Source of the DNA: Sphaerisporangium krabiense
GTDB lineage: Bacteria; Actinomycetota; Actinomycetes; Streptosporangiales; Streptosporangiaceae
Direction: 5' to 3'
Assembly: GCF_014200435.1 (NCBI RefSeq)
Contig: NZ_JACHBR010000001.1
Coordinates: 5,894,001-5,958,000, forward strand
DNA: 64,000 nucleotides
Shown here: piece by piece, positions 47,935-62,571 of the stretch
Numbering within the stretch: the stretch's first letter is position 1
Layout: every line of letters starts with the position of its first letter
The notes under the pieces: generated by a model
The model's input: the letters and a program-made list of their open reading frames with translations, nothing else
Database searches by the model: none
What the model was told of the DNA's origin: nothing
Position numbers and translations under genes: made by a program

Positions 47935-50616
47935 ATGCCGACTCCCGCCTCCGCCCCCATTCCCGCCGCGGGCCCGCCGAATCCGCCGCCGCCCTCGCCT
48001 CCCACCGCGCCCGTCCTGGACAACTCGGCGCGGGAGATCCTGAAGGGCACGCTCGTGCCGGTGCAGGTCACGGTGGCGGCCGGCGAGCCGGGCGGTGGCA
48101 TCGCCAAATCCGGCGCCATCCGACAACTGGCCCTGAACCCCGGCGAGACCGCGGAGGTCCGCGACCGGCTGCGGGACGCGGCGGCGCGGGCCGGCTCCGA
48201 CGCGGCCGGCGTCTCCGAGGCGACGTTCGAGCTGCTCCAGGCGTTCGAGGAGCCGGCCGTCCCCGCCCTGCGCCCGAGCCTCGCCGCGATCTCGCGCGTG
48301 CCCGCCGGTGAGCTGACGGCGTTCGCCGAAACCCTGCTCGGCCGGCGCGCCGAACGGCTGAAGGCGACGGACGCGGCGCGCGAACCGGAGGCGAGCGGCC
48401 GTGCCGCGCAGGCGGTCAACACCGCGGCGGTCGCGCTGCGCGGGCTGCTCGCCGTGACCGCGCCGCCGGTCGGCATGCTCAACCTGGAACGCATCGAGAT
48501 GGTCCCGGTGGGAATCCAGCGCGGCGAGCTCGTGGCGACCATCCCGCTGGCCCCCGGCGAGGAGACCGCGGTCACGCACACCGAGTGGTCGGTCACGTCC
48601 CGGGAGTTCACGACCATCGTCACCGACTCGCTGGAGGAGGTCAGCGAGACGGGCGTCACCGACAACACCGACCTGGCGCAGTCGACGTCGTCGCAGAGCC
48701 AGCACTCCAACCAGTTCAACATCACCGGAACGGTGCAGGGCGGCATCCCCATCATCTCCGGCTCCAGCACCACCGGCTTCACCGCCCAGGGGTCGGAGTC
48801 GGCGTCCGCGAGCGAGAGCGTCAAGCACGCCCGGACGACCACCCAGAAGGCCGCGTCCCGGTCGCGGCGGGAACACAAGGTCACCATCTCGACGAAGACC
48901 GAGACGGGCGCGTCCGAGACCTCGACCCGCATGCTGCGCAACCCGGGCAAGGACCCCATCCGGGTCGACTACTTCAGCCTGATGCGCAAGTGGCGCGTCC
49001 GGCTGTACCGCTACGGGCTGCGTCTCACCTACGACATCACGGTGCCGGAGCCGGGCGCGGCCATGCGGCGCGCGTACGCCGAGCTGGAACGGCTGCGCGC
49101 CCAGCAAGGGCCGTTCGAGTTCGACGTGAAGTACTCCGACATCACGACCGACAAGGTCGACCAGAACGGCAGGCCGGACCCGGGCGGGGTGCCCAAGTAC
49201 CGGTGGCTCGCCGACCGGCACGGCGTGGCGGTCCGGCCGTACCCGGAGGAGCCGACGCCGCTGACCGTCAGCGCGCACGTCAGCACGGGCGGCGGCTGGT
49301 ACTTCCTGGACCTGGAGTTCGAGGTGCCCGGGGGGACGCGCGTCCGCGAGATGCGGCTGGACGCGCAGATCGGCAAGGACGATTCGGACGACAGGATGAA
49401 CTTCGACGTCATCGGCGCCCACGCCGAGCCGGGGTGGGGCGGCCTGAGCGGGCCGCTGATCATCCGCGACCACAAGATCATGTCGGTCGGGTCCGGCGTG
49501 CCGTACATGGCCGGCTTCACCGGCCGACACAAGGTCACCTTCTTCTTCCACCACTCCGAGCAGGTGTTCGCCGGGCTGACCGTGCTGCGCGAGCTGACCC
49601 CCGAGGCCGTCGAGCAGTGGCGTACCGACGTCTGGAACACCCTGTACACCGCCGCCCAGACCAGGTACTTCGCCCAGCAGCAGGAGATCGCCGCCCGCAT
49701 CGCCGCCATCGAGGAGCGGCTGGAGAGCGTCGACACGCTGACCCTGCGGCGCGAGGAGAACGACGAGCTGATGAAGTGCGTGCTGCGCTTCGTCCTCGGC
49801 CCCGACTTCGACTTCATGCCGGACGACGTGCTGGCCGCGTTCACCGCCGCCGGGGTCGATCTGCAGCACGGCATCGGCTTCGACGGGCCGGGCCTGGACC
49901 TGAGCCCTCAGCAGTGGTCGGTGCTGCGGCGGCACGAGGACGTCATCCGGTTCCTCAACCAGGCCATCGAGTGGGAGAACGTGGTCACGTTCCTGTACTC
50001 CTACTTCTGGGACGTCCCCCCGAGCTGGGACTTCGTCCGCCGGCTCCGGCACCCCGACCCGAGCCGGCAGGCGTTCCTGCGCGCCGGCAGCGCCCGCATC
50101 GTGCTCACCGTGCGCAAGGGCTGGGAGGAGCGGTGGATGCGCTTCGCCGAGGGCGGCGCGGTGGACGCGCAGATCCCGGCCCCCTACCTGTCGATCGCCA
50201 AGGAGATCGCCGCGTACGACGACCGCAACTATCCGGGCATCCCGCCCGCGAATCCGGGCCGGGCGGCCGTCCGCCTCCAGGACGCCGTCTTCACCACCTG
50301 TTCTGCGGACATCGCGCCGAGCCCCAACCCGGTGACGATCAAGGTCGAGAGCAGCGACGGCTTCGTCGTCGGGCTGCCGGTGGTCATCGACGTGGAGGAC
50401 GACCGGCGCCTGCAGGAGGCGCAGACGGTGACCGCGATCCCCGACGCGACGCGCATCACGGTCGCCCGGATCACCGTCGCGCACCGCGGCACCCAGTCCC
50501 CGGTGCCGATCCTGCAGCCGGGGGAGAAGGGCGCGCTCATCGCGGAGTGGGGCGACTACACCCCGTCCTCGGGAACGGACATCGCCATGACGTCCAACCT
50601 CACGACGATCTCCTAG
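47935..50616 (+). CDS. Large protein of unknown function, multi-domain
   Basis: 893 aa, no signal peptide. Pro-rich N-terminus (2-26). A helical region follows. Ser/Thr/Gln-rich segment at 225-330 (QSTSSQSQHSNQF, then SESASASESV). Next is a beta-rich part with KWRVRLYRYGLRLTYDITVPEPG. A short coiled coil lies near 580-605 (EIAARIAAIEERLES), then IEWENVVTFLYSYFWDVPPSWDF. The C-terminal 110 residues look like a beta-sandwich (VESSDGFVVGLPVVIDVEDD, VTAIPDATRITV), as on surface or tail proteins. AGGGGA precedes ATG. 16 bp before the next gene, so co-transcribed. No family identified. Confidence 0.75.
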   Translation: MPTPASAPIPAAGPPNPPPPSPPTAPVLDNSAREILKGTLVPVQVTVAAGEPGGGIAKSGAIRQLALNPGETAEVRDRLRDAAARAGSDAAGVSEATFELLQAFEEPAVPALRPSLAAISRVPAGELTAFAETLLGRRAERLKATDAAREPEASGRAAQAVNTAAVALRGLLAVTAPPVGMLNLERIEMVPVGIQRGELVATIPLAPGEETAVTHTEWSVTSREFTTIVTDSLEEVSETGVTDNTDLAQSTSSQSQHSNQFNITGTVQGGIPIISGSSTTGFTAQGSESASASESVKHARTTTQKAASRSRREHKVTISTKTETGASETSTRMLRNPGKDPIRVDYFSLMRKWRVRLYRYGLRLTYDITVPEPGAAMRRAYAELERLRAQQGPFEFDVKYSDITTDKVDQNGRPDPGGVPKYRWLADRHGVAVRPYPEEPTPLTVSAHVSTGGGWYFLDLEFEVPGGTRVREMRLDAQIGKDDSDDRMNFDVIGAHAEPGWGGLSGPLIIRDHKIMSVGSGVPYMAGFTGRHKVTFFFHHSEQVFAGLTVLRELTPEAVEQWRTDVWNTLYTAAQTRYFAQQQEIAARIAAIEERLESVDTLTLRREENDELMKCVLRFVLGPDFDFMPDDVLAAFTAAGVDLQHGIGFDGPGLDLSPQQWSVLRRHEDVIRFLNQAIEWENVVTFLYSYFWDVPPSWDFVRRLRHPDPSRQAFLRAGSARIVLTVRKGWEERWMRFAEGGAVDAQIPAPYLSIAKEIAAYDDRNYPGIPPANPGRAAVRLQDAVFTTCSADIAPSPNPVTIKVESSDGFVVGLPVVIDVEDDRRLQEAQTVTAIPDATRITVARITVAHRGTQSPVPILQPGEKGALIAEWGDYTPSSGTDIAMTSNLTTIS

Positions 50617-50632
50617 ACGGCGCCCGACGACG

Positions 50633-51910
50633 ATGACGATGAGGGACGTCGGCGCGGAGGTCCTGGGGCTCCAGCCGCTGCCGCTCTTCCGGCGCGGCCC
50701 CGCCGCGGAGGTGGAAACGGATCCCGGCGCGCTGCTGCCCGGCGGTGGCCTGCGCAAGTTCGCCTGGAAGGTGCTCGACAAGGCGGCGGCCGACGGGATC
50801 GCCTACCACGAGGCCGCCTACGGCCCGGGCCACGGGAAGGACGCCGCGGGGCGCGCGTTCGCGCTGGAACGCGACTCCGGCACGACACGGCTGTTCTTCG
50901 TCTGGCTGCCGGGCGCGCTGGCGGGCCGGCTGAGCCGCGGCGCGCTGACCGCGCCGCTGAACTTCCACGTCCTGTTCCACCCGCCCACGTACGAGACCGA
51001 GTACACCGGCTCACGGCCCTACTGGCGGGGCAGGCTGCGCGCGGACGGGGTGCCGTACTACGTGAAGCTGGGCATCCGGTACCTCTGCAACGACTTCAAA
51101 GGCGTGGCCCACCACGTCATGGCCGTCACCGAGCGCGACCCGAACCTCGCCTACGTCGTCCCGGTCGCCGACGTGGCCGGGAACTTCGCCGACCTGCTCA
51201 CCCCGGCCGGCATGCTGGGCGCCCTCGGCGACGTCTACCGTGCCCTGACGACGTCGCTGAAGGGCCCGGCCCAGTTCGACCGGATCGGCGCCGTGATGCT
51301 CTCCGCGTACAGCCGCAGCGGCGACCGGCTGGTCCAGCTCATGCGCCAGGTCGGCCGCACCCCGTTCTTCACCGAGCACCTCACCCAGTGGAACGGGTTC
51401 GACATCAACCTCGGCGACAACGACGCCCAGCGGCTGCCCGAACTGGCCCGGCTCTGGACGGCCACGCGCCAGTGGGCCCAGCTCAACCGCAGGGCCCGCG
51501 CCTACCTGTACACCTCCTATCGCAGCCACTACAACCAGTGCCTGGCCGACCCCGAGCCCGGCGGCCGCGGGTGGACCGATCGCGCCGACCTCGACCTGGA
51601 GGACGTCTCCTGGTCGGACGGCCCCGCCCAGAAGGTCCGCGGCCAGGCGCGGGGCGTCGCCTCGGAGGCGTACGGATCGGACGCGCGGTTCGGCCTGGTC
51701 TGCCTGCCGGTGTCCTTCTTCCGCTTCTACCTCCAGAACCATGACCAGAACGGCAACGTGGTCATCGTCGGCAACCAGCAACGCGGCTGGCACGACGGCG
51801 ACTACGACATCGGCCGCGCCCACGGCCACGGCCTGTTCCTCCGCGGAATGATGTCCCACGCCCTGGCCCACGCCGACCCGCTCTTCTTCACCCCCAAAGC
51901 CACGCGGTGA
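50633..51910 (+). CDS. Protein of unknown function, alpha/beta-hydrolase-like features
   Basis: 425 aa. No signal peptide. A strand-turn-helix GAVMLSAYSRSGDRLVQLM near 220 has the shape of a nucleophile elbow (small-x-Ser-x-small), and TRLFFVWLPGAL plus NFHVLFHPPTYE look like core strands. The C-terminal HDGDYDIGRAHGHGLFLRGMMSHAL has His candidates. A hydrolase role is only a guess. It pairs with the 893-aa gene (16 bp apart). Alternative ATG at 50639. Confidence 0.7.
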   Translation: MTMRDVGAEVLGLQPLPLFRRGPAAEVETDPGALLPGGGLRKFAWKVLDKAAADGIAYHEAAYGPGHGKDAAGRAFALERDSGTTRLFFVWLPGALAGRLSRGALTAPLNFHVLFHPPTYETEYTGSRPYWRGRLRADGVPYYVKLGIRYLCNDFKGVAHHVMAVTERDPNLAYVVPVADVAGNFADLLTPAGMLGALGDVYRALTTSLKGPAQFDRIGAVMLSAYSRSGDRLVQLMRQVGRTPFFTEHLTQWNGFDINLGDNDAQRLPELARLWTATRQWAQLNRRARAYLYTSYRSHYNQCLADPEPGGRGWTDRADLDLEDVSWSDGPAQKVRGQARGVASEAYGSDARFGLVCLPVSFFRFYLQNHDQNGNVVIVGNQQRGWHDGDYDIGRAHGHGLFLRGMMSHALAHADPLFFTPKATR

Positions 51911-52009: not shown

Positions 52010-53683
52010 TCAGGCGCGGATGAAGCCGTTCACGACCAGCGGCAGCGAGGCGTCCAGGCCGGCGATGTTCAGCACGCCGTCGTCGCGGGGGTCGCCGATC
52101 GAGTGGCCGGTGGCGGTCATGGACGCCACGATCACCCGGGCGGCCGCGCTCACCGAGTGCCGGTAGGCGGTGAGCGCCTGTGAGGCGTGGGCGCGGCCGG
52201 CCCAGGTCTCGTTGTCGGTGAAGAGCACGACCCCGTCGACCTCGAGGTGCTCGTCTAGGGCCCAGCTGAAGGGGAGCGACAGGTCGGTGCCGCCGCCGGA
52301 GGGCTCCCAGCGTGCGATCTCGCGCAGGTTGGTGCGCGGGGTGATCTTCGAGGTGTGGACGCGGGTGTCGACCTCGATCACGTGGACGTTCCCGTTCTCG
52401 ATCCGCGCGAGCATGACGGCCATGGCGCAGCCGGCCTCGTAGGCACTGGCGATCACGGATCCGCCCACGACGATCTGCCCGCCGCCCCAGCGGCCGCTCA
52501 TGGAACCGGAGGAGTCGACGGCCACCAGGAGGCGCTTGCCGGACGGCTCGACGGTGCCGAAGGCGAGCTCGTAGGTCTGCTCCAGGGCGTCGAGGACCGC
52601 CGGGACCGGCTTCCAGGTGTGCGCGTCGGCGCGCGGGTTCGGCCGGGAACGCCCGGACGCGTAGACGCGCATGGCCAGCCAGGCGTCCATCGGATGGATC
52701 CGCGCCCGGCGAACGGCGTCCGCGTCCGTGAGCCGCGCGACCGCGCGCCGGGTGGCGTCGCCCATGGGCTTGAGCGTGCCGATGCGGGTCATACGGGCCA
52801 GGTTGCGGATGAGCGCGGTCATGCCGACCGTGTCCACCAGGGCGTCCCACACGCCCGGCTCGCGCAGCATCGCATCCGGCAGGAACTCCCACGGCACCCG
52901 GGCCTCGGTCACCACGCGCACCGCCTGCTCCGCCGAGGTGACGGCCTTGGCGGTGAGGAATCGGTCGACGGCCGGCAACTCATCGCGGGCCTCGTCGTCG
53001 GTGACGTTCCCGGCGATCCAGCCGAACAGCGCCTTCCGCTGCTCTGTGTCAGCGACCGGGTGGGCGATGCGCAGCACGTCACGCACGTCGAACGCCTCGC
53101 CCTGCGGCGTCCTTCGCTGCCGGGCCTTGCAGACTCGGAACGCCACGTCGTCCGCGCCGCCCTCCAGGAACCACGAGCCGAGCGCCGTGCGCAGGCTGCG
53201 GCCCACCACGGGGGCGGTGCCGCGGCCGGTGGCCTTGCCGCCGAGGTTCTTGTAGTAGCCGAAGAACGCCGCCAGGTGGTCGGTGGTGCGGGCGACCTTG
53301 GGCAGCGCGAGCTTGGCGGCCTGGCGGGTGTCGGCGTCACCCTTGGCGTAGGCGGCGGCGAGCGCGAACAGCGCCGGGCGGTTCTTCGGCGCGCGCGGCG
53401 GGCGCGCGGTGGAGATGTCGGTCAGCGCCCGGACGACGCGGGGGCCGTCCTCGGCGATGGCCTGGAACAACACGCCGGCGTTGTCGGCGGTGAGCCTGCC
53501 CTCGCCGACGTAGTAGGTGCCGCCCGTGGTGCCCAGGATCAGGAAGTCCTCCAGACGCGTCCACAGATCCTTCGCGAACACGTATCCGTCGGCGGCGTTA
53601 CGGACCTGGTCGGCCCGGCCGGGGATGCGCCGCGTCTGCGGGGTGGCGTGGGAGGTGACCGCTGCGAGAGGGTCACGCGACAT
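52010..53683 (-). CDS. rsr: Rsr, bacterial Ro60 (TROVE-vWA) protein
   Basis: 557 aa. HEAT-like TROVE ring (1-360; IPGRADQVRNAADGYVFAKDL, LEDFLILGTTGGTYYVGE at the start) and a C-terminal von Willebrand A domain with a full MIDAS: VAVDSSGSMSG, GGGTDLSL and LFTDNE. Ro60/Rsr binds Y RNAs at the outer surface and ends of misfolded RNAs in the central hole; in Deinococcus and Salmonella it works with PNPase or RNase in RNA decay and stress. ATG at 53683, GGAG 8 bp upstream. Four Y-RNA-like units lie just upstream on the same strand. Confidence 0.93.
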   Translation of the reverse strand: MSRDPLAAVTSHATPQTRRIPGRADQVRNAADGYVFAKDLWTRLEDFLILGTTGGTYYVGEGRLTADNAGVLFQAIAEDGPRVVRALTDISTARPPRAPKNRPALFALAAAYAKGDADTRQAAKLALPKVARTTDHLAAFFGYYKNLGGKATGRGTAPVVGRSLRTALGSWFLEGGADDVAFRVCKARQRRTPQGEAFDVRDVLRIAHPVADTEQRKALFGWIAGNVTDDEARDELPAVDRFLTAKAVTSAEQAVRVVTEARVPWEFLPDAMLREPGVWDALVDTVGMTALIRNLARMTRIGTLKPMGDATRRAVARLTDADAVRRARIHPMDAWLAMRVYASGRSRPNPRADAHTWKPVPAVLDALEQTYELAFGTVEPSGKRLLVAVDSSGSMSGRWGGGQIVVGGSVIASAYEAGCAMAVMLARIENGNVHVIEVDTRVHTSKITPRTNLREIARWEPSGGGTDLSLPFSWALDEHLEVDGVVLFTDNETWAGRAHASQALTAYRHSVSAAARVIVASMTATGHSIGDPRDDGVLNIAGLDASLPLVVNGFIRA

Positions 53684-53765
53684 GACGGCCTCCGTATGGT
53701 TCGACCCGCCGGAGCGGCGGATGTAAGGGGGCGGGGGAGCGGATGTGGTGGTGCCTGCCGGTGTT

Positions 53766-53870
53766 GAGCCGGTGTCCTGGACCGCTGGACGACGTCCCGC
53801 GCCGTGCGGGGCGGCAGGATTCGAACCCGCGTTGCCGGCGCCGGATGACCGGCTCGACTTCGACCCGCTC
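53766..53870 (-). ncRNA. Y RNA-like unit 4 with permuted tRNA module
   Basis: 5' part: CGGGTCGAAG (53867-53858) and CGGTCATC (53851-53844). Then a T-arm GCGGG-TTCGAAT-CCTGC (53830-53814), an acceptor-like hairpin (53813-53793; 7 of 8 pairs, loop ACGGC) and a D-arm GTCC-N9-GGAC with GG in the loop (53790-53774). Ends are closed by GAGC/GCTC. The order T-arm, acceptor helix, D-arm is that of a tRNA cut open at the anticodon. It lies 82 nt before the rsr start. Confidence 0.72.
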
Positions 53871-53907
53871 TCCCCATGGCGGTGGCCGGCTCTATGGGCG
53901 GCACGGA

Positions 53908-54010
53908 GGTGCCGTATCGACCGGTTTCGTTACGGGCCGCGGACGGCCCGGCAGGATTCGAACCCGCACCCACCATGAGTGATGACCGACCAGCCTCGAC
54001 CCGTACCACC
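53908..54010 (-). ncRNA. Y RNA-like unit 3, T-arm and acceptor helix
   Basis: CGGGTCGAGG (54003-53994) and CGGTCATC (53988-53981), then T-arm GCGGG-TTCGAAT-CCTGC (53967-53951) and a perfect 7-bp acceptor-like stem CGGGCCG/CGGCCCG with TCCG loop (53950-53933). No clear D-arm follows. Ends may pair GGTGGTA with TAC..CACC. A hairpin CGGCAC-CTCC-GTGCCG (53914-53899) at the 3' edge could terminate it. Confidence 0.62.
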
Positions 54011-54038
54011 GACAGGACCGACGAACGATCAGGTCGGG

Positions 54039-54180
54039 AACCGGCACGGATATGGGTACGCCCACCGGCCTTTTTGGTGCTCTGCCAACTGAGCTACACA
54101 GGCGAACCTGTGGCGGGACTCGAACCCGCGACCGCCCCATTAATAGTGGATAACCGATGAGACTTCGACCCGTGCCGATT
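54039..54180 (-). ncRNA. Y RNA-like unit 2 with complete permuted tRNA module
   Basis: Ends form an 11-bp helix AATCGGCACGG / CCGTGCCGGTT (54180-54170 with 54049-54039, one wobble). Inside: CGGGTCGAAG (54172-54163), CGGTTATC (54156-54149), T-arm GCGGG-TTCGAGT-CCCGC (54129-54113), acceptor stem CACAGG-TTCG-CCTGTG (54112-54097), TA, D-arm GCTC-AGTTGGCA-GAGC (54094-54079). Every part a tRNA finder uses is present but in permuted order, so it is not a tRNA gene. The 5' motifs GTCGAAG ... GTTATC match animal Y RNA Ro-binding strands. Confidence 0.78.
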
Positions 54181-54206
54181 CCGGACCTGACCGGTCCACC
54201 GCGCCG

Positions 54207-54290
54207 GGAGCGGACACGGATGTGTTAGTGGCCACCGGCGGGTATCTATGGGAAAGATGACCGATGCCCTTCGACCCGTGCTCCTCCAAG
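54207..54290 (-). ncRNA. Y RNA-like unit 1, no tRNA module
   Basis: Carries CGGGTCGAAG (54278-54269) and CGGTCATC (54263-54256) at the same 5-nt spacing as the others. Closing helix CACGG/CCGTG with neighbouring pairs. The T-arm and acceptor hairpin of the other three are absent; the loop (54255-54222) is short. TAATGT at 54309-54314 (minus strand) may be the -10 box for the array. Confidence 0.55.
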
Positions 54291-54469
54291 CGCGACGAAC
54301 TGATCTCCACATTAGCGAGTGAACGTGAATCGCACACATGGATTTCCCTCACACGGGCCATTCCCACATTCGGCCGCTTTCGAGCCGCGAAGACCACGGC
54401 GGTCGCTTCGCCGCCCCGGGCACCGGTATCGCCGCGCACCGCAGGGCGACCCGCGACATGGGCAGCGCT

Positions 54470-55590: not shown

Positions 55591-55664
<74 letters not shown>

Positions 55665-55671
55665 CAGACGA

Positions 55672-55717
55672 AAAGGTCTGTCGAGCTGAGGGAAACCTCA
55701 GGTCAACAGACCTTTCT
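55672..55717 (+). terminator. tRNA-Pro terminator, nested hairpin with T-tract
   Basis: Outer stem AAAGGTCTGT / ACAGACCTTT (55672-55681 and 55706-55715), inner stem CTGAGG-GAAA-CCTCAG, then TTTCTT. An alternative stem GACAGAC/GTCTGTC (55663-55682) overlaps it. Also serves the integrase gene from the other side. Confidence 0.75.
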
Positions 55718-55744
55718 TCATGTCGGCCAGATCGTCGGGCGTCT

Positions 55745-56956
55745 CTAGACCGCCCGCAGCCGGGGACCACTTGGGGACCGGCGCACCGAGAGATGAGCGC
55801 TCAACGCCTCTCCCGCATCGGCGATCGAGCGTGCATCCGGGTGAAGGTAGCGCTGCGTCGTACTCAGCGAGCCATGACCGGCGATCTTCCTGAGCACATG
55901 CACCGGCACGCCGGCATCCGCCATCCAGGTCAGGCCCGTGTGCCGAAGATCGTGGCGCCGAAGATGCTCGAACCCCAGCTTGGTCACCACCTCGTCCCAA
56001 TGGGTCGCGTCCCGGAGAACCGCGGTGGTGATCCGACCGCCGCGCGGCCCGGTGAACAGCCTGCCCGCCGGGTCCGAGCCGAGCGCATCGAGCCGACGAG
56101 CTACCAGGTCTCGAACCTCTGCGATCAACGGGACCTTACGAGCCCGCTTCCCTTTCGTGCCCTTGTCCGCCAGGCCGCCGGGACTGGGCGTGGTCTGGCG
56201 GCGAACCGTCCAGGTCCACGAGGCACGGTCGATGTCACCGGCCCGTACCCCGGACACCTCGCCGATCCGAGCAGCGGTACAGGCGGCAAAGATGACCACC
56301 TCACCCCACCCCTGATAGGCGCCGGCCGAGCGCTCCACCAACGCCGCGGCAAGCCGGGTCAGCGTCTCCCAGTCAGGCAGCGCCAGCGCGCGAGGATCAT
56401 CCAACTCGTCTTCCGCCCGCTGGTACTCCCTGCGCCAGCCGGTCACCCGGGCGGGGTTGCGATCGATGATGCCGTCACGGACGGCTTGTTCCATGACGCG
56501 CACGAGCACAGCCAAGCTGTTCTTCACGGTCGACTGGCCACATTCATCGGCGATCCAGCCATGGACGGCACGGTCAACCACCCCGTTGGAGATCAGCCGT
56601 ATGGGCAGGTGGCCAAGTGTCGGCACCACCCGCCTACGCCAGCCAGCAAGGTAAGGGTCCAGGGTCTTGCTCTCCAGACCGCGAAGCGCCAGGGGCATCA
56701 CATTCCCGCCATACTCGGCGAGCGTCGCCGTAGCCGCGAGGGGATCGATGCCGCCGCGGGCGGCGTCCTCCATCTCCTTGATCCACGCTTCCGCGGCTTC
56801 CAACGTGTCCACTGATTCGGACTTGGACTTGCGTCGTTTGGTGGCCGGATCGAACCAGCGAACCCGGGCGCGATACGGGTTGGGTCGTCCAGGCCGATGC
56901 TCCACGTCCGATGACAGGGCGATGCCGACCGGCAGTGATTGCTTCAGATCGCGCAT
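55745..56956 (-). CDS. int: Tyrosine site-specific integrase of the AICE
   Basis: 403 aa lambda-type recombinase. SAM-like N-terminal domain (ATATLAEYGGNVMPLAL region). Catalytic motifs: first Arg in CTAARIGEVSGVR, HDLRHTGLTWMADAG with H-x-x-R, GHGSLSTTQRYLHPD with His and nucleophile Tyr. Start overlaps the xis stop (ATGA). It ends 81 bp from the tRNA-Pro gene. Catalyses integration into and, with Xis, excision from the tRNA. Confidence 0.94.
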   Translation of the reverse strand: MRDLKQSLPVGIALSSDVEHRPGRPNPYRARVRWFDPATKRRKSKSESVDTLEAAEAWIKEMEDAARGGIDPLAATATLAEYGGNVMPLALRGLESKTLDPYLAGWRRRVVPTLGHLPIRLISNGVVDRAVHGWIADECGQSTVKNSLAVLVRVMEQAVRDGIIDRNPARVTGWRREYQRAEDELDDPRALALPDWETLTRLAAALVERSAGAYQGWGEVVIFAACTAARIGEVSGVRAGDIDRASWTWTVRRQTTPSPGGLADKGTKGKRARKVPLIAEVRDLVARRLDALGSDPAGRLFTGPRGGRITTAVLRDATHWDEVVTKLGFEHLRRHDLRHTGLTWMADAGVPVHVLRKIAGHGSLSTTQRYLHPDARSIADAGEALSAHLSVRRSPSGPRLRAV

Positions 56957-57198
56957 CAGGCGACCTTGCCCGGGTCGATGCGACGACTGGCCAGCCACTG
57001 CCGAACGTCCCGCACGTCGTAGAGCGTCAGGCGTGAAGAGACTTGCACGAACGGAGGCCCCTGGAGAGGGCGCGCGGTGCGCCATCGGCGAAGCGTCGAA
57101 GGGTCCACCTTCAGCACCCGCGCCAATTCCTCCGTCGTGTACCAGCCTTCCTCGAAGAGGATCACCGCCTCATTGGAAATCGTCACGGGGGTGGACAT
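56956..57198 (-). CDS. xis: Excisionase (MerR-type HTH)
   Basis: 80 aa. WYTTEELARVLKVDPSTLRRWRTARPLQGP is a winged HTH of the phage Xis/MerR group; SSRLTLYDVRDVRQWLASRR is its wing and end. ATG at 57198 has AAGGAGG upstream. Overlaps int by 1 nt and rep by 29 nt. Confidence 0.88.
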   Translation of the reverse strand: MSTPVTISNEAVILFEEGWYTTEELARVLKVDPSTLRRWRTARPLQGPPFVQVSSRLTLYDVRDVRQWLASRRIDPGKVA

Positions 57199-58597
57199 TC
57201 GAAGCCTCCTTTCCTTCGTGTGCTGACACGTTGCGCGACCCGGAGAGACCTGTAGCGAGCACTGATTCGCCAGCGGTGTAGCCCTGTCCGGCGTACCTCC
57301 AGTGGGCGACGACGAGGGTTGTCTCATCGCTGTGAGGACCGGTGCGGCGATTGGTGCGGTAGTCGATGCGGGCTTGGCGGAGCCGTCCCAGGGTGGTGGA
57401 GTAGGCGCGGGATTTGGTGGAGAAGTGGCCGCGGAAGCCGAGCATGTGCGCCCACTTGCGCAGCTTCAGCGGGAGCAGTCGCGGGTGTACGTCGAGGTCG
57501 CCGAGGTTCCAGGCGGTTCGGATCAGGCGTGCGGCGTGGTCGGTCACATCGAGCTTTTCCAGGCGTGGCAGGTCGCAGGGGCGGATTCGGCGGTCCAGGG
57601 TGCCGGAACTCTCGGCGGCTTTGGTGGCGTACTTGGCGATGTAGCCGGCGACCTTCTGTTCGTTCAGCTCGCCCGCTTGGTCGTCTAGTTCGCCGAGGTC
57701 GATGGGTTTGACGTCGATCTGTTCGCCCCAGACCAGCTCTGTGGTTTCTTGCCCGAGGTGTGGCGCGTCCAGTGTCGAGGCGCGGGCAGCGGTGTGGATG
57801 GCGTCGGTCAGCAGCTCTACCGTGGCCCAGGGCGGTGGTGGGATGACGTCGGCGGGATCGTCGGTGCGTCCGTCGATGCGGATGACGGCATGGAAGTGCA
57901 CCACGCCGCGGGCCTGATACTCGGCGACTTTGGCGAAGCTGACCCGCGCGCAGCGGTTGAAGGCGGCATGCGTCAGCCCGGTGGCGGTGGCCAGGTGACG
58001 GCGCAGGTAGATCGTGAAGCGGCGCCACAGGTCACCGGCGTGCGCGTTCCACAGCACGTGCCCGATGTAGTCGTAGCTGGCCGGGTCGAGGGGTTGCCCG
58101 ATCGCGGGATCACCGGGGGCGTGATTCTTCCAGCAGGCCGGCCCGGTCCGCCGAGGGCGACAGGTGACGGGCTTGCCGCTCTTGTCGGGGCCGCGGTGCA
58201 CAGGCCCGAACGACGGCGCGGTGAGCGTGGCCAGCACCCGCGGATGTGTGCGCACTGTGGCGGGAACGTCTTTGCTGCCGCCGAGAAGCCCGGCGCGGAT
58301 CAGGTGGTAGGTATCGCGGCGGTAGGTCTCGGCGCAGGAGGGGCAGCGGGAGGCGCGACGGTTGCCGCAGCGCACCAGCAGTTGCCCGTGCGGTTCACCG
58401 ATGGTGCTGTAGTGGTCGAGGATCTGCCCGGTACCGGCGTCGATGGTGGCGGTTTCCCCGGACAGGCGTACCGGTTCGGCGCAGCCGCCCAGCCGGGCGA
58501 CCTGGTCAAGCCAGCGGGTGAGGTCTTTGCCCGAGCGGCGGGCCAGGTCACGAATGACCGGCCCGACCAGATCGGCGAGCGGCGCGGGGGCGCTCAA
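57170..58597 (-). CDS. repSA: Replication initiator, RepSA-like
   Basis: 475 aa. CPSCAETYRRDTYHLIRAGL, ATLTAPSFGPVH, CRPRRTGPACW, GVVHFHAVIR (His motif of rolling-circle initiators), AKYATKAAES. Matches RepSA of pSAM2, which starts rolling-circle replication of excised AICEs. TTG start at 58597 overlaps the stop of the upstream gene (TTGA), with GGAG 9 bp upstream, so coupled. The C-terminus overlaps xis. Confidence 0.88.
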   Translation of the reverse strand: MSAPAPLADLVGPVIRDLARRSGKDLTRWLDQVARLGGCAEPVRLSGETATIDAGTGQILDHYSTIGEPHGQLLVRCGNRRASRCPSCAETYRRDTYHLIRAGLLGGSKDVPATVRTHPRVLATLTAPSFGPVHRGPDKSGKPVTCRPRRTGPACWKNHAPGDPAIGQPLDPASYDYIGHVLWNAHAGDLWRRFTIYLRRHLATATGLTHAAFNRCARVSFAKVAEYQARGVVHFHAVIRIDGRTDDPADVIPPPPWATVELLTDAIHTAARASTLDAPHLGQETTELVWGEQIDVKPIDLGELDDQAGELNEQKVAGYIAKYATKAAESSGTLDRRIRPCDLPRLEKLDVTDHAARLIRTAWNLGDLDVHPRLLPLKLRKWAHMLGFRGHFSTKSRAYSTTLGRLRQARIDYRTNRRTGPHSDETTLVVAHWRYAGQGYTAGESVLATGLSGSRNVSAHEGKEASNVHPRDDFQ

Positions 58598-58851
58598 CGA
58601 ACGTTGCTCCCTTCGTGGGCGGTGATCTTTTCGGTGTGGGTGATGACGATGACCGAGGCGCAGGCGGGGCACTGTCGCTCGGAGGGAAGGCGCCCGCCGC
58701 AGGCGATCCGGCGATGACGTCTGGCCAAGTGGACCAGGACTGGGGCCAGGCACGGCCCGGACTTGACCGCTGTGACGCTGCGGGTGGTGTCGTGGGGGTA
58801 GGTGGCGCTGGGCCGGTAGGTCTCGGTGACTTGTACCTGGTAGGTGGCCAT
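58594..58851 (-). CDS. Small putative zinc-ribbon protein
   Basis: 85 aa. CGGRLPSERQCPACASVIVIT has CX9-CX2-C, plausibly a zinc site. Start overlaps the DpdA-like stop (TGATG), stop overlaps the rep start. Part of the rep transcription unit. No known family. Confidence 0.65.
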   Translation of the reverse strand: MATYQVQVTETYRPSATYPHDTTRSVTAVKSGPCLAPVLVHLARRHRRIACGGRLPSERQCPACASVIVITHTEKITAHEGSNVR

Positions 58852-59609
58852 CACAGGCCGTCCAGGGTGGGTTGTTGCCATCGCAGAGTTGCGAGTAAGC
58901 GGGCGCGCCAGGTTTCGGCGAAGGTGCGGCAGTTGGCTTCGTTGATGTGCCCGGGGTGGGCTGAGGGGGTACGGCGGCCTTGGTAGCTCCAGGCGAGGGA
59001 ATCGGCGGAGGCCAAGGAGGCTGCGTAGCACTGTAGGCCGCGGGTCTTGACGCCGAACCCGTGCAGACGTAGTCCGCCAGCGGCCAGAGTGGTCACGATT
59101 GTGTGGATCTGAGTGCTGTGTTGGCGACGGCAGACGCTGCCGAGTCCGACCAGGGGTTGTGCAGTCAGGTCGATGCCGGCGCGGTCGTACAGGGTGACGC
59201 AGTGCAGGTAGTCATTCAGGCTCCAGCCCTGTACCACTGGAACGATTGGCAGGTCAGGAAAGGCGCTGCGTAGATCGAGGTAGTTGCCCACGGTACGGTG
59301 TTGGTGTTCGCGTAAGGTAAGCCCGGTTTTGGTGAGCATGAAGGGCTCGCACATCCAGTCCTGGGGAGCTGCCCAGGCGACGTTGCCGATTTCGTCGACG
59401 TAGCGGCGGATGGCGTTGCCGTAGGTACGGGGTGAGGCGGTCCAGGTGCCGTGTAGCGAAAGTTCGGTGAAGCCGCCTGAATCAATCGCGACCTCGCCGA
59501 TTGCTCGGGGCAGGGTCTTGTAGCTGGATAGACGACGGTGACTGACAAACAGCGGGAAAGGGCACAGACGAAGCCACCCTGGATGGTGGGTGCCCAGGTA
59601 GAACTTCAC
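58851..59609 (-). CDS. TGT/DpdA-like enzyme (deazapurine modification candidate)
   Basis: 252 aa. FYLGTHHPGWLRL; the TGT-type acid motif VAIDSGGFTEL; AWAAPQDWMCEPFML; PVVQGWSLNDYL; PLVGLGSVCRRQ; LRLHGFGVKT. This is the queuine-tRNA-ribosyltransferase-like fold as in DpdA, which inserts 7-deazaguanine bases into DNA. The TGT zinc site CXCXXC is absent. No queC/D/E-like precursor gene in the window. GTG at 59609 overlaps the preceding stop. It sits in the rep operon of the AICE, so DNA is the more likely target than tRNA (inference). Confidence 0.78.
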   Translation of the reverse strand: MKFYLGTHHPGWLRLCPFPLFVSHRRLSSYKTLPRAIGEVAIDSGGFTELSLHGTWTASPRTYGNAIRRYVDEIGNVAWAAPQDWMCEPFMLTKTGLTLREHQHRTVGNYLDLRSAFPDLPIVPVVQGWSLNDYLHCVTLYDRAGIDLTAQPLVGLGSVCRRQHSTQIHTIVTTLAAGGLRLHGFGVKTRGLQCYAASLASADSLAWSYQGRRTPSAHPGHINEANCRTFAETWRARLLATLRWQQPTLDGL

Positions 59610-59800
59610 AGGCGGCTTCCGCTGACGGTCTCGGTTTCGGCGCAGACTTTGTGGCAAGCAGTTCCGTGGCTATCGCACAGAAACGTGAGCCGACCGCAGA
59701 TGCGGCACGGCAAACGGCGTCCGCCCATCCAGTGGTTGACCGCCTTGGAGTTGCGTCGCTTGTCTCCGCTCCAGTCCAGGCCGTGAGGTGTGCCGCTCAT
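59606..59800 (-). CDS. Small zinc-ribbon protein
   Basis: 64 aa. NHWMGGRRLPCRICGRLTF then CDSHGTACHKVC: two Cys pairs suit one zinc. ATG at 59800 overlaps the preceding stop; its stop overlaps the DpdA-like start (GTGA). Possible accessory of the TGT-like protein. Confidence 0.68.
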   Translation of the reverse strand: MSGTPHGLDWSGDKRRNSKAVNHWMGGRRLPCRICGRLTFLCDSHGTACHKVCAETETVSGSRL

Positions 59801-59928
59801 CGGCCGCACCTGCCGCATGTGGTTGTGGTGCGGAGGTTGATGCCGCCGCAGCGGCATACCCATGTGGATGGGGTGCCAGGTGGCAGCCACGGCCCGGACA
59901 GTGCCGGACCGGGGCGGTTTGCGGGCAT
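59797..59928 (-). CDS. 43-aa zinc-ribbon micro-protein
   Basis: Frame from ATG at 59928 to TGA at 59797: a Pro-rich half, then WVCRCGGINLRTTTTCGRCGR with CxC and CxxC. GGAGAC precedes ATG. Overlap ATGA with the next gene supports it as real. Confidence 0.65.
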   Translation of the reverse strand: MPANRPGPALSGPWLPPGTPSTWVCRCGGINLRTTTTCGRCGR

Positions 59929-60025
59929 ACTGGTGTCTCCTTTGCTGTGTGCGAGGGAGGCGCCCCACGAGGCGGCGAGCTGCCAGGCTTTGAGCCGCCC
60001 CGTGGAGGCGTTGAAGATTGCAGGG

Positions 60026-60178
60026 TCAGGAGCGGGAACGCTTGCGATAGGCGTTCAGGTCGGTCACCGAGGCGTCGGGGCCGCGCAGTCGCGCGTTCTC
60101 CTCACGCAGCTCGATGAGTTCACCGAGCAGTTCCTCGATCAGAGCTTCTTCCTCGTTCGGGCCGGTGTTTCGCGGCAT
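60026..60178 (-). CDS. 50-aa coiled-coil micro-protein
   Basis: EEEALIEELLGELIELREENARL is a leucine-zipper-like heptad run (about 9-31), then a basic end YRKRSRS. ATG at 60178. Could be a dimeric DNA-binding or adaptor peptide. Confidence 0.62.
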   Translation of the reverse strand: MPRNTGPNEEEALIEELLGELIELREENARLRGPDASVTDLNAYRKRSRS

Positions 60179-60222
60179 GGCGATCACTCCTGGGGCAGGG
60201 GACGGGGAGCAGGTTTCGCGGG

Positions 60223-60369
60223 TCAGCGGTGGTTGTCGATGCCGGTGCCGCTGCAGTCGCGGCAGCAGGCGTCGTCGTGGTCGATGCCGGTTCCGTGGCA
60301 GGTGGCGCACCGGTAGGCGCGCGGCTCGATGTCCTCGAAGGGGTCGAAGTCCTCGTCGTTCTCGATCAC
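60223..60369 (-). CDS. 48-aa CxxCxGxG zinc protein
   Basis: Acidic N-terminus DEDFDPFEDIE, then CATCHGTGIDHDDACCRDCSGTG, two CXXCXGXG motifs as in the DnaJ zinc domain. GTG at 60369 overlaps the upstream stop. Confidence 0.68.
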   Translation of the reverse strand: MIENDEDFDPFEDIEPRAYRCATCHGTGIDHDDACCRDCSGTGIDNHR

Positions 60370-60551
60370 GCGGGAACCTCTCCGTTCGGGGCGTGGCCGG
60401 TACCGCCGCAGGTGAGGCACAGCGCGTAGCCCTCGATGGTGCGGCGGCGCAGACCGCGGCCGACAACTTGGGCGGTGAGTACCTGGCGCCGTCCCTCGCA
60501 GTCGGGGCACAGCTCAGGCGTGGTCGTGGTGGTCGGGCCGTTGGAGGTCAT
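60366..60551 (-). CDS. 61-aa CxxCxGxG-like zinc protein
   Basis: CPDCEGRRQV ... CLTCGGTGHAP, the second half-site being CXXCXGXG. Overlaps both neighbours by 4 bp. Confidence 0.68.
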   Translation of the reverse strand: MTSNGPTTTTTPELCPDCEGRRQVLTAQVVGRGLRRRTIEGYALCLTCGGTGHAPNGEVPA

Positions 60552-60685
60552 CGGGTGCCGGTGCCGTGGCAGGTGGAGCAGGTCTGGCGGGTCTCGATGA
60601 TCAGGATGCGGCCGTTGCGCAGGACGGACTTGAGCAGGCCGACCGTGCGGTAGCCGCGGCAGGTGGTGCACGTCTCGCGGGACAT
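60548..60685 (-). CDS. 45-aa CxxCxGxG zinc protein
   Basis: Frame from ATG at 60685 to TGA at 60548: CTTCRGYR near the start and CSTCHGTGTR at the end, both CXXCXG. CACCTCCC precedes. First of three coupled zinc micro-genes. Confidence 0.66.
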   Translation of the reverse strand: MSRETCTTCRGYRTVGLLKSVLRNGRILIIETRQTCSTCHGTGTR

Positions 60686-60722
60686 GGGAGGTGTCCTTTC
60701 TGTGCGGTCTGACGTTCCGCAA

Positions 60723-60746
60723 GGCCGCCCCTCCTTGTAGGCGGCC
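60723..60746 (-). terminator. Hairpin after the Pycsar-effector-like gene
   Basis: 7-bp stem GGCCGCC / GGCGGCC with 10-nt loop, 40 bp past that stop and before the zinc micro-genes. Confidence 0.5.
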
Positions 60747-60786
60747 AGGGCGCAGCGTCAGCGCCGAGCCAGGCAGGAAAAGGGGA

Positions 60787-61311
60787 CTACAGGCGGCTGA
60801 GAGGCAGGGCGGCGACCAGGGCGGCCAGCGCCACAAGCAGCACGTCCACCGCCAGTCGCAGTCGGCGGTACTTGGTCACCGCCAGCCGTGACAGGATGTG
60901 CACCTCTTCAGCGGCGATGGTGACCCGGTCCCCGCGGAAGGTCATCAGTTCGCGGAGAACTTCGTGGGCGGTGGTGGCGCGGGCGTACAGGATGAATCCG
61001 GTGCCGCCGGTGCGCGGCACGCGGGGGCGGACCGCTGCCAGTAGCACGCCGATCGCGCAGGCCAGCAGTCCCGCCGAGGTGATGAGCGCGGCTGTCGCTG
61101 GCGCGGGCAGGTCGGTGGCAGTGGATGCGGTGATGGTCAGGCCGGCGATCACGGCGAAGGCGCCACCGGCCCAGGACAAAAGGCCCGAGGCTTTGCCGTC
61201 GATACGGACCAGTTCGGCGCGGGCGTTAGCGGACTGTCCGGCAAGGTCGGCCAGGATCTCCCGATCAGCGTTGGGGACACGGGGGACGAAGGGCGGGGGC
61301 GTGGTCGTCAT
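60787..61311 (-). CDS. Pycsar effector-like membrane protein (PycTM/DUF5706-like)
   Basis: 174 aa. N-terminal helix ARAELVRIDGKASGLLSWAGGAFAVIAGLT leads into two hydrophobic segments (about 44-92), then GTGFILYARATTAHEVLREL, and YRRLRLAVDVLLVALAALVAALPL at the end. This matches the Pycsar effector PycTM family, membrane proteins that disrupt the membrane when a cyclase makes cCMP or cUMP. No PycC-like cyclase is seen in the window, so it is an orphan. On AICEs related proteins may have another role. Confidence 0.72.
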   Translation of the reverse strand: MTTTPPPFVPRVPNADREILADLAGQSANARAELVRIDGKASGLLSWAGGAFAVIAGLTITASTATDLPAPATAALITSAGLLACAIGVLLAAVRPRVPRTGGTGFILYARATTAHEVLRELMTFRGDRVTIAAEEVHILSRLAVTKYRRLRLAVDVLLVALAALVAALPLSRL

Positions 61312-61326
61312 GGCGGGGTCCTGTCT

Positions 61327-61482
61327 TCAGTTCAGGCCGGACACGAAACCGGCGATGTTGTCGGCCAGGGCGTCCAGCGCGTTCACGGTGTGGCCGACCA
61401 GTTCGGCGGCTGAGGCCGGTTGGGTCAGCAGGTAGAAGACGGCGAGCACCAGCAGGGCGCGACCGGTCAGCTTGCGCAGCAT
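61327..61482 (-). CDS. 51-aa membrane or secreted peptide
   Basis: ATG at 61482 to TGA at 61327. RKLTGRALLVLAVFYLLTQPASA looks like a signal peptide or anchor; the rest is LVGHTVNALDALADNIAGFV. 15 bp before the PycTM-like start. Possibly an Spd-like peptide. Confidence 0.6.
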   Translation of the reverse strand: MLRKLTGRALLVLAVFYLLTQPASAAELVGHTVNALDALADNIAGFVSGLN

Positions 61483-61503
61483 GGCGACGACTCCCGGCCG
61501 AGG

Positions 61504-61821
61504 TCAGGCGGTGACGGAGCCGTCGTAACTCATCAGCGCTCGCCATTCGCGGGCGACGTCGTCCCAGACCGCGACCGCGCGGTAGGTGATCGGCCCGAAG
61601 TCGCGGCAGGTCTCGTAGTGCGTGCCCTCGCTGACCGGGCGGTCGATCAGCGAGCCGATCCGGTCGATCTGCGTGCGCTTGTCGTCGTCGGTGCCCGAGG
61701 CGAACACGTTGATCTCGCTGCCGTGGCCGGGGACGGGGACCTTGGGGTTGTCGGCCAGGAACGCGGCCAGGCGGCGCAGACCGGCGATGAACTCGGCGCG
61801 GGTGGTGGTGTCGGTCGTCAT
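61504..61821 (-). CDS. AICE-borne hypothetical protein
   Basis: 105 aa: FIAGLRRLAAFLADNPKVPVP, VFASGTDDDKRTQIDRIGSL, VAVWDDVAREWRAL. No recognised family. Similar proteins occur near rep/tra genes on actinomycete plasmids in my recollection. Confidence 0.65.
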   Translation of the reverse strand: MTTDTTTRAEFIAGLRRLAAFLADNPKVPVPGHGSEINVFASGTDDDKRTQIDRIGSLIDRPVSEGTHYETCRDFGPITYRAVAVWDDVAREWRALMSYDGSVTA

Positions 61822-61848
61822 GACGGCGATGCCCTTTCAGGAGTGGAT

Positions 61849-62571
61849 TTACGGGGTGGTCAGCAGGGCCAAGACGCGGTTGGCCATCTGCGGGGAGATG
61901 CGCAGCCGGCGGTGCAGGTCATCTGCGCTAATCGGGGTCTTGCGTAGCCGGGCGTGTTCGGCCGCCAGGTATCGGGCGTCTTCCAGCAGCGAGGCGCTGA
62001 CCTCGGATGGGTCCGCAGTGTGGTTGCCCGTGTGGCCGGTGGAGGTCAGTGCGGCATGTGCCGGTTCTGCCAGTTCGGAACGCGGTTGCTCCGCCGGTCC
62101 GGAGTCGAGGCCGGTGCGGTCGGGGACCAGTTCGGCATCAAGCACCGCCACCGCAGCGGGAGACTCGGCAGGGGCGGGAGTGTGGCCGGCGCGACGCTCC
62201 AGCATGGACATCGCGATCAGGAACGCCCCCGCGGGGGTGGCGGCCAGGATCCACCCCCAGGGGTTACGGTCGGCTTCGGCGAGGTTGGCGGCCAGGGTGA
62301 GCACGATCCCGCCGGTCAGGACCAGGGACGGCCACGACAGCAGGCCACGGCGCAGACGGCCGGTGCGTTTGTCGCGCTGGATCTCCCGGGCGGCCATGAC
62401 GCACATCAGGTCGATGCACACCGCGACCGCCCAGGCCCGCCACTCGGTTTGACCATGCTTGGCCGCAAGCTTGCTGATGTGGTCGAAGGACCCGACCGCG
62501 GCGATACCGGCAAGTACCATGACCGGGCCGTTGTCCATCAGCGCGGCTTTGATCCGGCGCATGGCCGACAC
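61849..62571 (-). CDS. DUF2637 membrane protein, Spd-like
   Basis: 240 aa. Four likely N-terminal helices within 1-122 (VMVLAGIAAVGSFDHISKLA, AWAVAVCIDLMCVMAAREIQRD, LVLTGGIVLTLAANLAEA, GWILAATPAGAFLIAMSM). The C-terminal 115 residues are acidic/Ser-rich with an HTH-like end ISADDLHRRLRISPQMANRVLALL. DUF2637 proteins accompany tra on actinomycete plasmids and are linked to spread between mycelial compartments. Confidence 0.82.
   Translation of the reverse strand: MSAMRRIKAALMDNGPVMVLAGIAAVGSFDHISKLAAKHGQTEWRAWAVAVCIDLMCVMAAREIQRDKRTGRLRRGLLSWPSLVLTGGIVLTLAANLAEADRNPWGWILAATPAGAFLIAMSMLERRAGHTPAPAESPAAVAVLDAELVPDRTGLDSGPAEQPRSELAEPAHAALTSTGHTGNHTADPSEVSASLLEDARYLAAEHARLRKTPISADDLHRRLRISPQMANRVLALLTTP

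Follow-up and report, generated by a model that had tools for sequence, protein, structure and literature searches.

A tandem array of Y-RNA-like units upstream of rsr in Sphaerisporangium krabiense and a leader hairpin with the Y-RNA site in swapped strand order

Are the four tandem units that precede a TROVE-protein gene in Sphaerisporangium krabiense Y RNAs, do they belong with that gene, and what might link their supply to that of the protein? The units lie in a window of 64,000 nucleotides (the whole stretch of DNA that was analysed, to which all positions below refer unless a locus is named). We know of no account of how the levels of Ro60 or Rsr are matched to those of Y RNAs. Deletion of the Ro60/Rsr protein is reported to lower Y RNA levels (PMC4726728).

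The rsr gene and the units in front of it

The product of the gene matches Pfam PF25045 (vWA_Ro60, 2e-40) and PF05731 (TROVE, 2.8e-20), and its best match among solved structures is Rsr (PDB 2nvo, 1.7e-74, residues 5-555). With both the TROVE and the Ro60 vWA domain present, the open reading frame is, as judged from its product, Rsr, the bacterial Ro60; its nearest relatives among named genomes are found in Sphaerisporangium and Nonomuraea. The first-pass annotation had placed the units upstream of a gene for a TROVE protein and on its strand, and this is confirmed, the gene being a true rsr by all three matches. Two long adjacent open reading frames of 893 and 425 aa (47935-50616 and 50633-51910, plus strand), both without Pfam match, converge on rsr. 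The array itself is adjoined by a pSAM2-type integrative element (55591-62571; for its parts see Table 1), within which a protein with a PycTM (Pycsar effector) domain is encoded (60787-61311, minus strand) that may represent phage-defence cargo.

Table 1. Features of the rsr locus and its surroundings in the window
Feature	Position	Strand	Basis or remark
rsr (Ro sixty-related), 557 aa	52010-53683	-	TROVE and Ro60 vWA; ATG at 53683
Shine-Dalgarno GGAGG of rsr	53689-53693	-	read directly in the sequence
Leader element (LE), permuted Y-RNA site UACAUCCGCC-GCUCC-GGCGGGUCGAA	53700-53725	-	alignments, model R1, genome scan
U4, Y-RNA-like unit	53734-53875	-	GGG at 53866; 3' CACATCCG at 53747-53740
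U3, Y-RNA-like unit, deviating 3' site (CACCTCCG)	53897-54010	-	sequence reading, detector
U2, YrlA-type unit with long outer stem	54024-54195	-	RF02553 (47.1 bits), inverted repeat, covariation
U1, minimal Y-RNA-like unit without tRNA module	54209-54287	-	detector, U1-type covariation
Candidate single array promoter, GTGTGC-17 nt-TAATGT	54309-54337	-	consensus match only
tRNA-Pro(GGG) of pSAM2-kind element	55591-55665	+	
Phage-type integrase of pSAM2-kind element	55745-57085	-	
HTH_17 protein of pSAM2-kind element	56956-57327	-	
RepSA replication initiator of pSAM2-kind element	57170-58753	-	5.4e-159
DUF2637 protein of pSAM2-kind element	61849-62571	-	

The units had been described by a shared CGGGTCGARG followed, after 5-6 nt, by CGGTYATC. 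Reading of the minus strand bears this out with spacers of 5, 6, 5 and 6 nt: the 5' strands are CGGGTCGAAG-GGCAT-CGGTCATC in U1, CGGGTCGAAG-TCTCAT-CGGTTATC in U2, CGGGTCGAGG-CTGGT-CGGTCATC in U3 and CGGGTCGAAG-TCGAGC-CGGTCATC in U4. A partner strand CAYATCCG (CACCTCCG in U3) is found 53-119 nt past each of them. When the whole window is searched with a detector that combines GGGYCGAR, CGGTYATC and the partner CAYATCCG within 42-170 nt (at most one mismatch per block), four matches appear on the minus strand (at 54277, 54171, 54002 and 53866) and none on the plus strand. Elsewhere in the loci of relatives (752,141 nt) the same detector matches four times, and two of these matches look like a real second array. 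As for the extent of the region, the range of 53766-54290 given earlier is slightly off (the 3' strand of U4 reaches about 53734 and so lies outside it), and its list of elements misses a related element at 53700-53725.

The folding energies of the single units in the window (z of -0.66, -2.29, -1.04 and -0.94) are weak evidence, and the case rests on comparison. Ahead of the first unit, a TAnn[GT]T hexamer is present at a distance of 37-38 nt in 23 of 52 loci, and the two-hexamer promoter pattern fits 14 of the 52.

Y-RNA stem, tRNA-like modules and the tie to rsr

For the comparison, rsr loci were fetched from named genomes (46 loci, L025-L070) and from other genomes. Left out were L065, L069 and L070 (cut short, distant or a fragment) as well as the weak TROVE matches L017-L021 and L023; once duplicates and seven loci repeating others with shifted ends had been taken out, the set counted 53 loci. 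L052 and L082 appear to represent a single species. The U1-type alignment (33 loci) contains 21 consensus pairs, 11 of them with changes on both sides. For the U2 type (29 loci) both-side changes are seen at 21 of 49 pairs and span the outer, lower and upper stems, the T arm and the acceptor stem, with the D-arm pairs nearly invariant. The window's own U2 row lost its 3' end in the alignment, and its outer stem was judged from an inverted repeat of 27 nt (85% complementary); the family alignments cover the U1 and U2 types.

Central to both alignments is a near-invariant core of CGGGU paired with AUCCG, flanked by CGAA and CAY, in which a G.U wobble occurs in 31 of the 33 U1-type rows and in all 29 U2-type rows. 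These alignments support the view that the paired ends form a Y-RNA stem with a conserved core in U1 and U2, which Rsr would presumably contact. The likeness of the 5' strand to the Ro-binding strand of animal Y RNAs, which the first-pass annotation had put forward, is plausible.

That the units carry different modules, also claimed before, proved correct. The whole tRNA module is absent from U1; U2 is a permuted tRNA mimic of the YrlA type, with T arm, UUCG-capped acceptor stem and D arm TAGCTCAGTTGGCAGAGC; U3 has the T arm and the acceptor hairpin and no D arm; U4 combines T arm and acceptor hairpin with a tRNA-Glu-like D arm, TCGTCCAGCGGTCCAGGACACC. Only U2 and U4 thus have all three parts of the module. 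The D arm of U4 resembles TCGTCTAGCGGCCTAGGACACC of the genome's tRNA-Glu, and the D arms of the other tRNAs found differ from it (30 of 59 tRNA loci compared). In relatives the Glu-like D arm is located in U3 or U4, varying by species, and 33 of 41 loci have more than one D-arm class under a rough classing that misfiles some units (e.g. U2 of L040 as 'no T').

By their predicted structure, the Y RNAs of the array are of the known kind, with U2 being of a near-standard YrlA type. YrlA (Rfam RF02553; Salmonella YrlA and the Mycobacterium smegmatis Y RNA) shares with U2 a long end-paired stem and a permuted tRNA module, and is encoded beside rsr as well; its module is described as a tRNA mimic (PMC8394870), circularly permuted relative to tRNA (PMC11472068). 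Unlike YrlA, the present locus has four units in tandem, among which U1 lacks the module, U3 lacks the D arm and U4 has the Glu-like D arm, and U2 scores just 47.1 bits (along the whole model) against a gathering score of 69. The Salmonella rsr-yrlBA-rtcBA operon likewise contains more than one Y RNA (PMC7790460), but there the RNAs follow rsr, together with rtcBA under RtcR, whereas here up to four precede it.

U3 matches RF02553 with 21.3 bits, again below the gathering score, and in U1 and U4 no match to the model is found. Consequently, an Rfam scan alone would miss the array: at gathering score, the scan of the window returns the tRNA-Pro and none of the four units. None of 296 genomes of the class passes the gathering threshold of RF02553, and sub-threshold matches occur in 72 of these 296 as well as in 6 of 14 controls, for which reason we do not lean on the E-value of U2. 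Out of 30 fetched RF02553 loci (L091-L120), an rsr frame lies within about 1.5 kb at the window's own locus only. Sub-threshold matches at the rsr-free places go down to 1.4e-11 and are spread over many actinobacterial genomes; adjacent tRNA genes or orphan Y RNAs are possible explanations.

A search for the exact 5' pattern covered 249 genomes of the order. With a cut-off of at least 700 bits, 35 of these are rsr-bearing (33 with a full-length gene, one with a gene split between contigs and one with a truncated gene); genomes with an rsr fragment (G239 and G240) or a distant TROVE match were counted among those without rsr. The pattern is found at 74 places in 34 of the 249 genomes, and 68 of the places are beside rsr; a reversed control pattern has no match in the same genomes. 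Expressed per genome, the pattern is present in 32 of the 35 with rsr and in 2 of the 214 without. In those two (G106 and G258) the spacers measure 2-3 nt, unlike at the remaining places. Four second places in G256 and G269 belong to partial arrays, with no rsr frame in the 5.5-6 kb fetched. The one in G256 (C15; L164, about 2380-2960) comprises U1-U3 and a cut U4, the one in G269 (C1; L165, about 2560-2960) comprises U1-U3 with a changed U3, and rsr is not directly behind either.

Genome G262 lacks the beginning of rsr together with the leader, U4 and some of U3. Both of its remaining units, U1 and U2, read CGAGTCGA instead of CGGGTCGA, which places an A opposite a C in the helix. The base lost is the G beside the wobble G, which normally pairs with C and is present in all of the 145 units compared (1.00). 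Decay in this direction would fit a site that is maintained for Rsr, though it is seen in a single genome and gene conversion may be involved. The truncated rsr and the two leftover units are found in L133 (G262:C1:6667000-6671500) at about 2150-2600.

Four units at one locus had been called unusual, a claim that the relatives contradict: 13 of the 53 related loci also carry four by the strict detector, 13 have three, 26 have two and one has none. A looser count (up to two mismatches) yields 15 loci with four units, spurious T-arm matches included. Decayed copies of U1 are seen in L034 and L043. Counted by eye, G310 has three units and G457 one, and among phages there are two in Gordonia Cashline, three in Mycobacterium Breeniome, two in Sparky and one in Streptomyces CeilingFan. 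Judged from these loci, the array is a normal feature of the clade that grows and shrinks. Spongiactinospora sp. TRM90649 has three rsr paralogues (L037, L041 and L063) with none, two and two units according to the strict detector, and in Actinomadura sp. WMMA1423 a two-unit array (L068, 1460-1760) is located about 2.5 kb upstream of rsr.

A strand-swapped Y-RNA site in the rsr leader

The element at 53700-53725 (LE) consists of the blocks of the Y-RNA site (CAYAUCCG and CGGGUCGAA) in swapped strand order, arranged as a hairpin with a helix of 7 bp (53722-53716/53710-53704). It ends 6 nt ahead of the Shine-Dalgarno sequence of rsr, where the window reads UACAUCCGCC-GCUCC-GGCGGGUCGAACC. LE and the Y site share the AUCCG/CGGGU helix with CAY and CGAA on its flanks; the loop of LE closes the outer end of the helix, which is where Y RNAs have their free ends. 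Taken alone, the hairpin is not unusually stable (z of -0.60).

Alignments were made of 31 leaders, and 29 of these entered model R1 (L056 and L063 were left out as badly aligned). The 31 had been preselected for CGGGYCGA and TCCG, and their invariance at these positions, including the G.U pair, is partly imposed. Free covariation within the 29 is slight, with one double change (L052, A-U to G-C) that 55 of 500 shuffles reach as well. Scanning the 249 genomes with R1 results in 25 best matches (44.2-31.9 bits) that are all just upstream of rsr, and the next match, away from rsr, scores 28.4 bits. Eighteen of the 25 are loci in the model or of the same species; seven are outside it (G198, G234, G238, G246, G252, G267 and G276). 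Ten of the 35 genomes with rsr have no such R1 match: seven of one genus (corresponding to Herbidospora), G141 (where the array is reduced to U1 and U2), G221 (degenerate) and G262.

Positions free of the preselection can be compared between LE (34 loci) and the Y sites (145 units, collected with a detector permitting one mismatch per block). The C is kept in 91% of leaders vs 99% of Y sites and the A in 97% vs 100%; the following C/T is divided 56/44 in LE vs 58/42 in Y sites, and the A after CGA is present in 88% vs 99%. Directly outside the site the two differ, CGAA being followed mostly by G or T in Y units and mostly by C in leaders. A partner-strand test without fixed TCCG put U opposite G in 26 of 39 loci; in most others it fell on a CCG in the loop, and it decides little. 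Differences in the loop length of LE do not come in multiples of three, so LE is not coding sequence. In 33 of 34 loci an SD-like match follows CGA at a distance of 4-10 nt. When leader and last unit are folded together, the median probability of the LE helix is 0.88. Overall, the leader shares the conserved nucleotides of the Y site and sits at the predicted ribosome site.

Beyond the order, 20 leaders (6 cellular, 10 from Streptomyces phages and 4 from Mycobacterium or Gordonia phages) were scanned for RYCY-loop-GGGY-CGR within 65 nt of the rsr start. The pattern is present in 14 of the 20, which are not independent events as the phages are related (the Amabiko leader equals that of CeilingFan), at a control rate of 0.012 per 65 nt (26 occurrences in 142,334 nt, a control that includes the complete reverse strand as well as the genes in those stretches). 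It was written after two positives had been seen (G310 and CeilingFan); 12 of 14 later-fetched loci fit it.

Among the cellular loci, four of six have the permuted hairpin. G310, whose Rsr is 42% identical to that of the window, reads CAUGCCCGG-AUA-CCGGGCCGAG with a GCCC/GGGC helix; its own Y stems are mostly GGGC/GCCC, and the leader helix has changed in step. Three of four relatives of G310 with rsr contain the hairpin too (G676, G647 and G688). The pattern scan did not find it in the leaders of G622 and G457, and in the family of G457 no further rsr locus was found.

All ten Streptomyces phage leaders have the hairpin at the start of rsr, as in the window, with an Rsr that is about 31-34% identical to the window's. 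The forms are UGCCC-loop-GGGC-CGGA (CeilingFan, Genie2, Naboo, LukeCage and Amabiko), UGCCC-loop-GGGC-CGAA (SparkleGoddess and Gilson), UGCCU-loop-GGGC-CGGU (NootNoot and Riptide) and AUCC-loop-GGGU-CGAA (EGole, L171 650-680). The helix is shorter than that of the window, and upstream there is one Y unit in CeilingFan. The records of these phages have no feature annotated at the hairpin, that of Naboo carrying no annotation. As a side observation, the AUCC/GGGU leader of EGole resembles the actinomycete one, the other Streptomyces phages having GCCC/GGGC or GCCU/GGGC. With the same scan the hairpin was found in none of the other four phages (Gordonia Cashline and GMA2, Mycobacterium Breeniome and Sparky). 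Like the window, Cashline, Breeniome and Sparky have tandem units upstream of rsr, which in Breeniome and Sparky are by eye a mixture with and without tRNA-like part; they differ in the sequence of the lower stem as well as in the leader.

Putative self-control of Rsr and its alternatives

The comparisons show that the structures are conserved and linked to rsr, and that in several lineages the ribosome-binding region holds a copy of the site with its strands exchanged. Based on these sequence comparisons, it is quite likely that the array yields Y RNAs together with Rsr and that Rsr represses its own mRNA via the permuted leader mimic. It also seems reasonably likely that such self-control operates in several actinobacterial lineages and phages, with Y RNAs serving as titrators too. 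The four Y RNAs and the message would derive from one transcript starting upstream of U1, possibly at the candidate promoter 37 nt before it, with RNA processing in the outer stems. The paired ends of the units, in a fold backed by covariation, would present the CGGGU/AUCCG helix beside CGAA and CAY, and by analogy to known Y RNAs Rsr is expected to bind that helix; the differing modules probably give Rsr different handles (e.g. PNPase tethering or substrate gating). Rsr that is free of Y RNA would bind the leader site CAYAUCCGCC-loop-GGCGGGUCGAA, located a few nt ahead of the Shine-Dalgarno sequence, cover the ribosome site and thereby repress its own translation. With repression setting in when Y RNA is short, Rsr would be made only as fast as Y RNAs absorb it.

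Leaders of ribosomal-protein and aminoacyl-tRNA-synthetase genes, such as those of S15, L20 and ThrRS, mimic the RNA target of the protein. The leader described here imitates such a target at the ribosome site as well; it differs in that the protein is Rsr, that the mimic is a strand-swapped Y-RNA site and that repression is predicted from sequence. In titles and abstract openings among the matches listed by our literature search, with subscription journals largely outside its scope, no description of a Y-RNA mimic in an rsr leader was found, and within this literature the permuted leader is apparently an undescribed variant. If the model is true, the same site has been built twice (in Y-RNA order in the non-coding RNAs and in swapped order in the message) and Y RNAs are titrators in a feedback loop besides being tethers and gates. 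The recurrence of the hairpin in soil actinomycetes and Streptomyces phages makes the matching of Rsr and Y RNA levels directly testable, and LE, if bound, would provide structural studies with a minimal natural ligand of Rsr of about 26 nt. The arrays, for their part, combine one RNP stem with varied tRNA-mimic modules in one locus (one of them Glu-like, and one unit having no module), where the role of the module can be tested.

Other readings of the leader accept the units as Y RNAs. It might be argued that Rsr does bind the leader but affects stability or decay of the mRNA, through recruitment of PNPase or protection of the 5' end, rather than translation. Rsr-Y RNA complexes are reported to act with PNPase in Deinococcus (PMC8394870 and PMC4726728), and after removal of the last unit by processing, LE would be close to the start of the message. 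The observations here are compatible with both outcomes, the short spacing between LE and the Shine-Dalgarno sequence fitting occlusion better, and we regard an effect on decay as unlikely. Still less probable is that LE is a functionless remnant of a lost unit or of a junction between two units, beside ordinary Y RNAs. A tandem array places the 3' strand of one unit before the 5' strand of the next, a deletion could thus yield a permuted site, and arrays do gain and lose units (as in the decayed U1 copies and the partial rsr-free arrays mentioned above). A remnant should drift, however, whereas hairpins of this design, with matched base changes, are found again ahead of rsr in Streptomyces phages, in G310 and in three relatives of the latter; several of those phages have a protein gene annotated directly upstream of rsr, and strong R1 matches occur at rsr only.

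Repression by bound Rsr can further be set against an RNA switch independent of Rsr, in which the strands of the last unit and LE swap partners. The 5' strand of the last unit is indeed complementary to AUCCGCC of LE, but the pairing probabilities do not support the exchange: cross-pairing stays below 0.5 in all 34 loci (highest 0.18, median 0.0), with the LE helix above 0.5 in 28 of the 34 and the stem of the last unit in 30, which renders a switch very improbable. The array as such could also be read as tRNA-derived repeats or a broken tRNA cluster instead of Y RNAs, given that T-arm sequences recur and that weak RF02553 matches exist away from rsr in other genomes. This reading is hardly credible, being largely refuted by the co-occurrence of the units with rsr. 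U1 keeps the same stem without any tRNA part, and the core of the stem, where conservation is highest, goes together with rsr.
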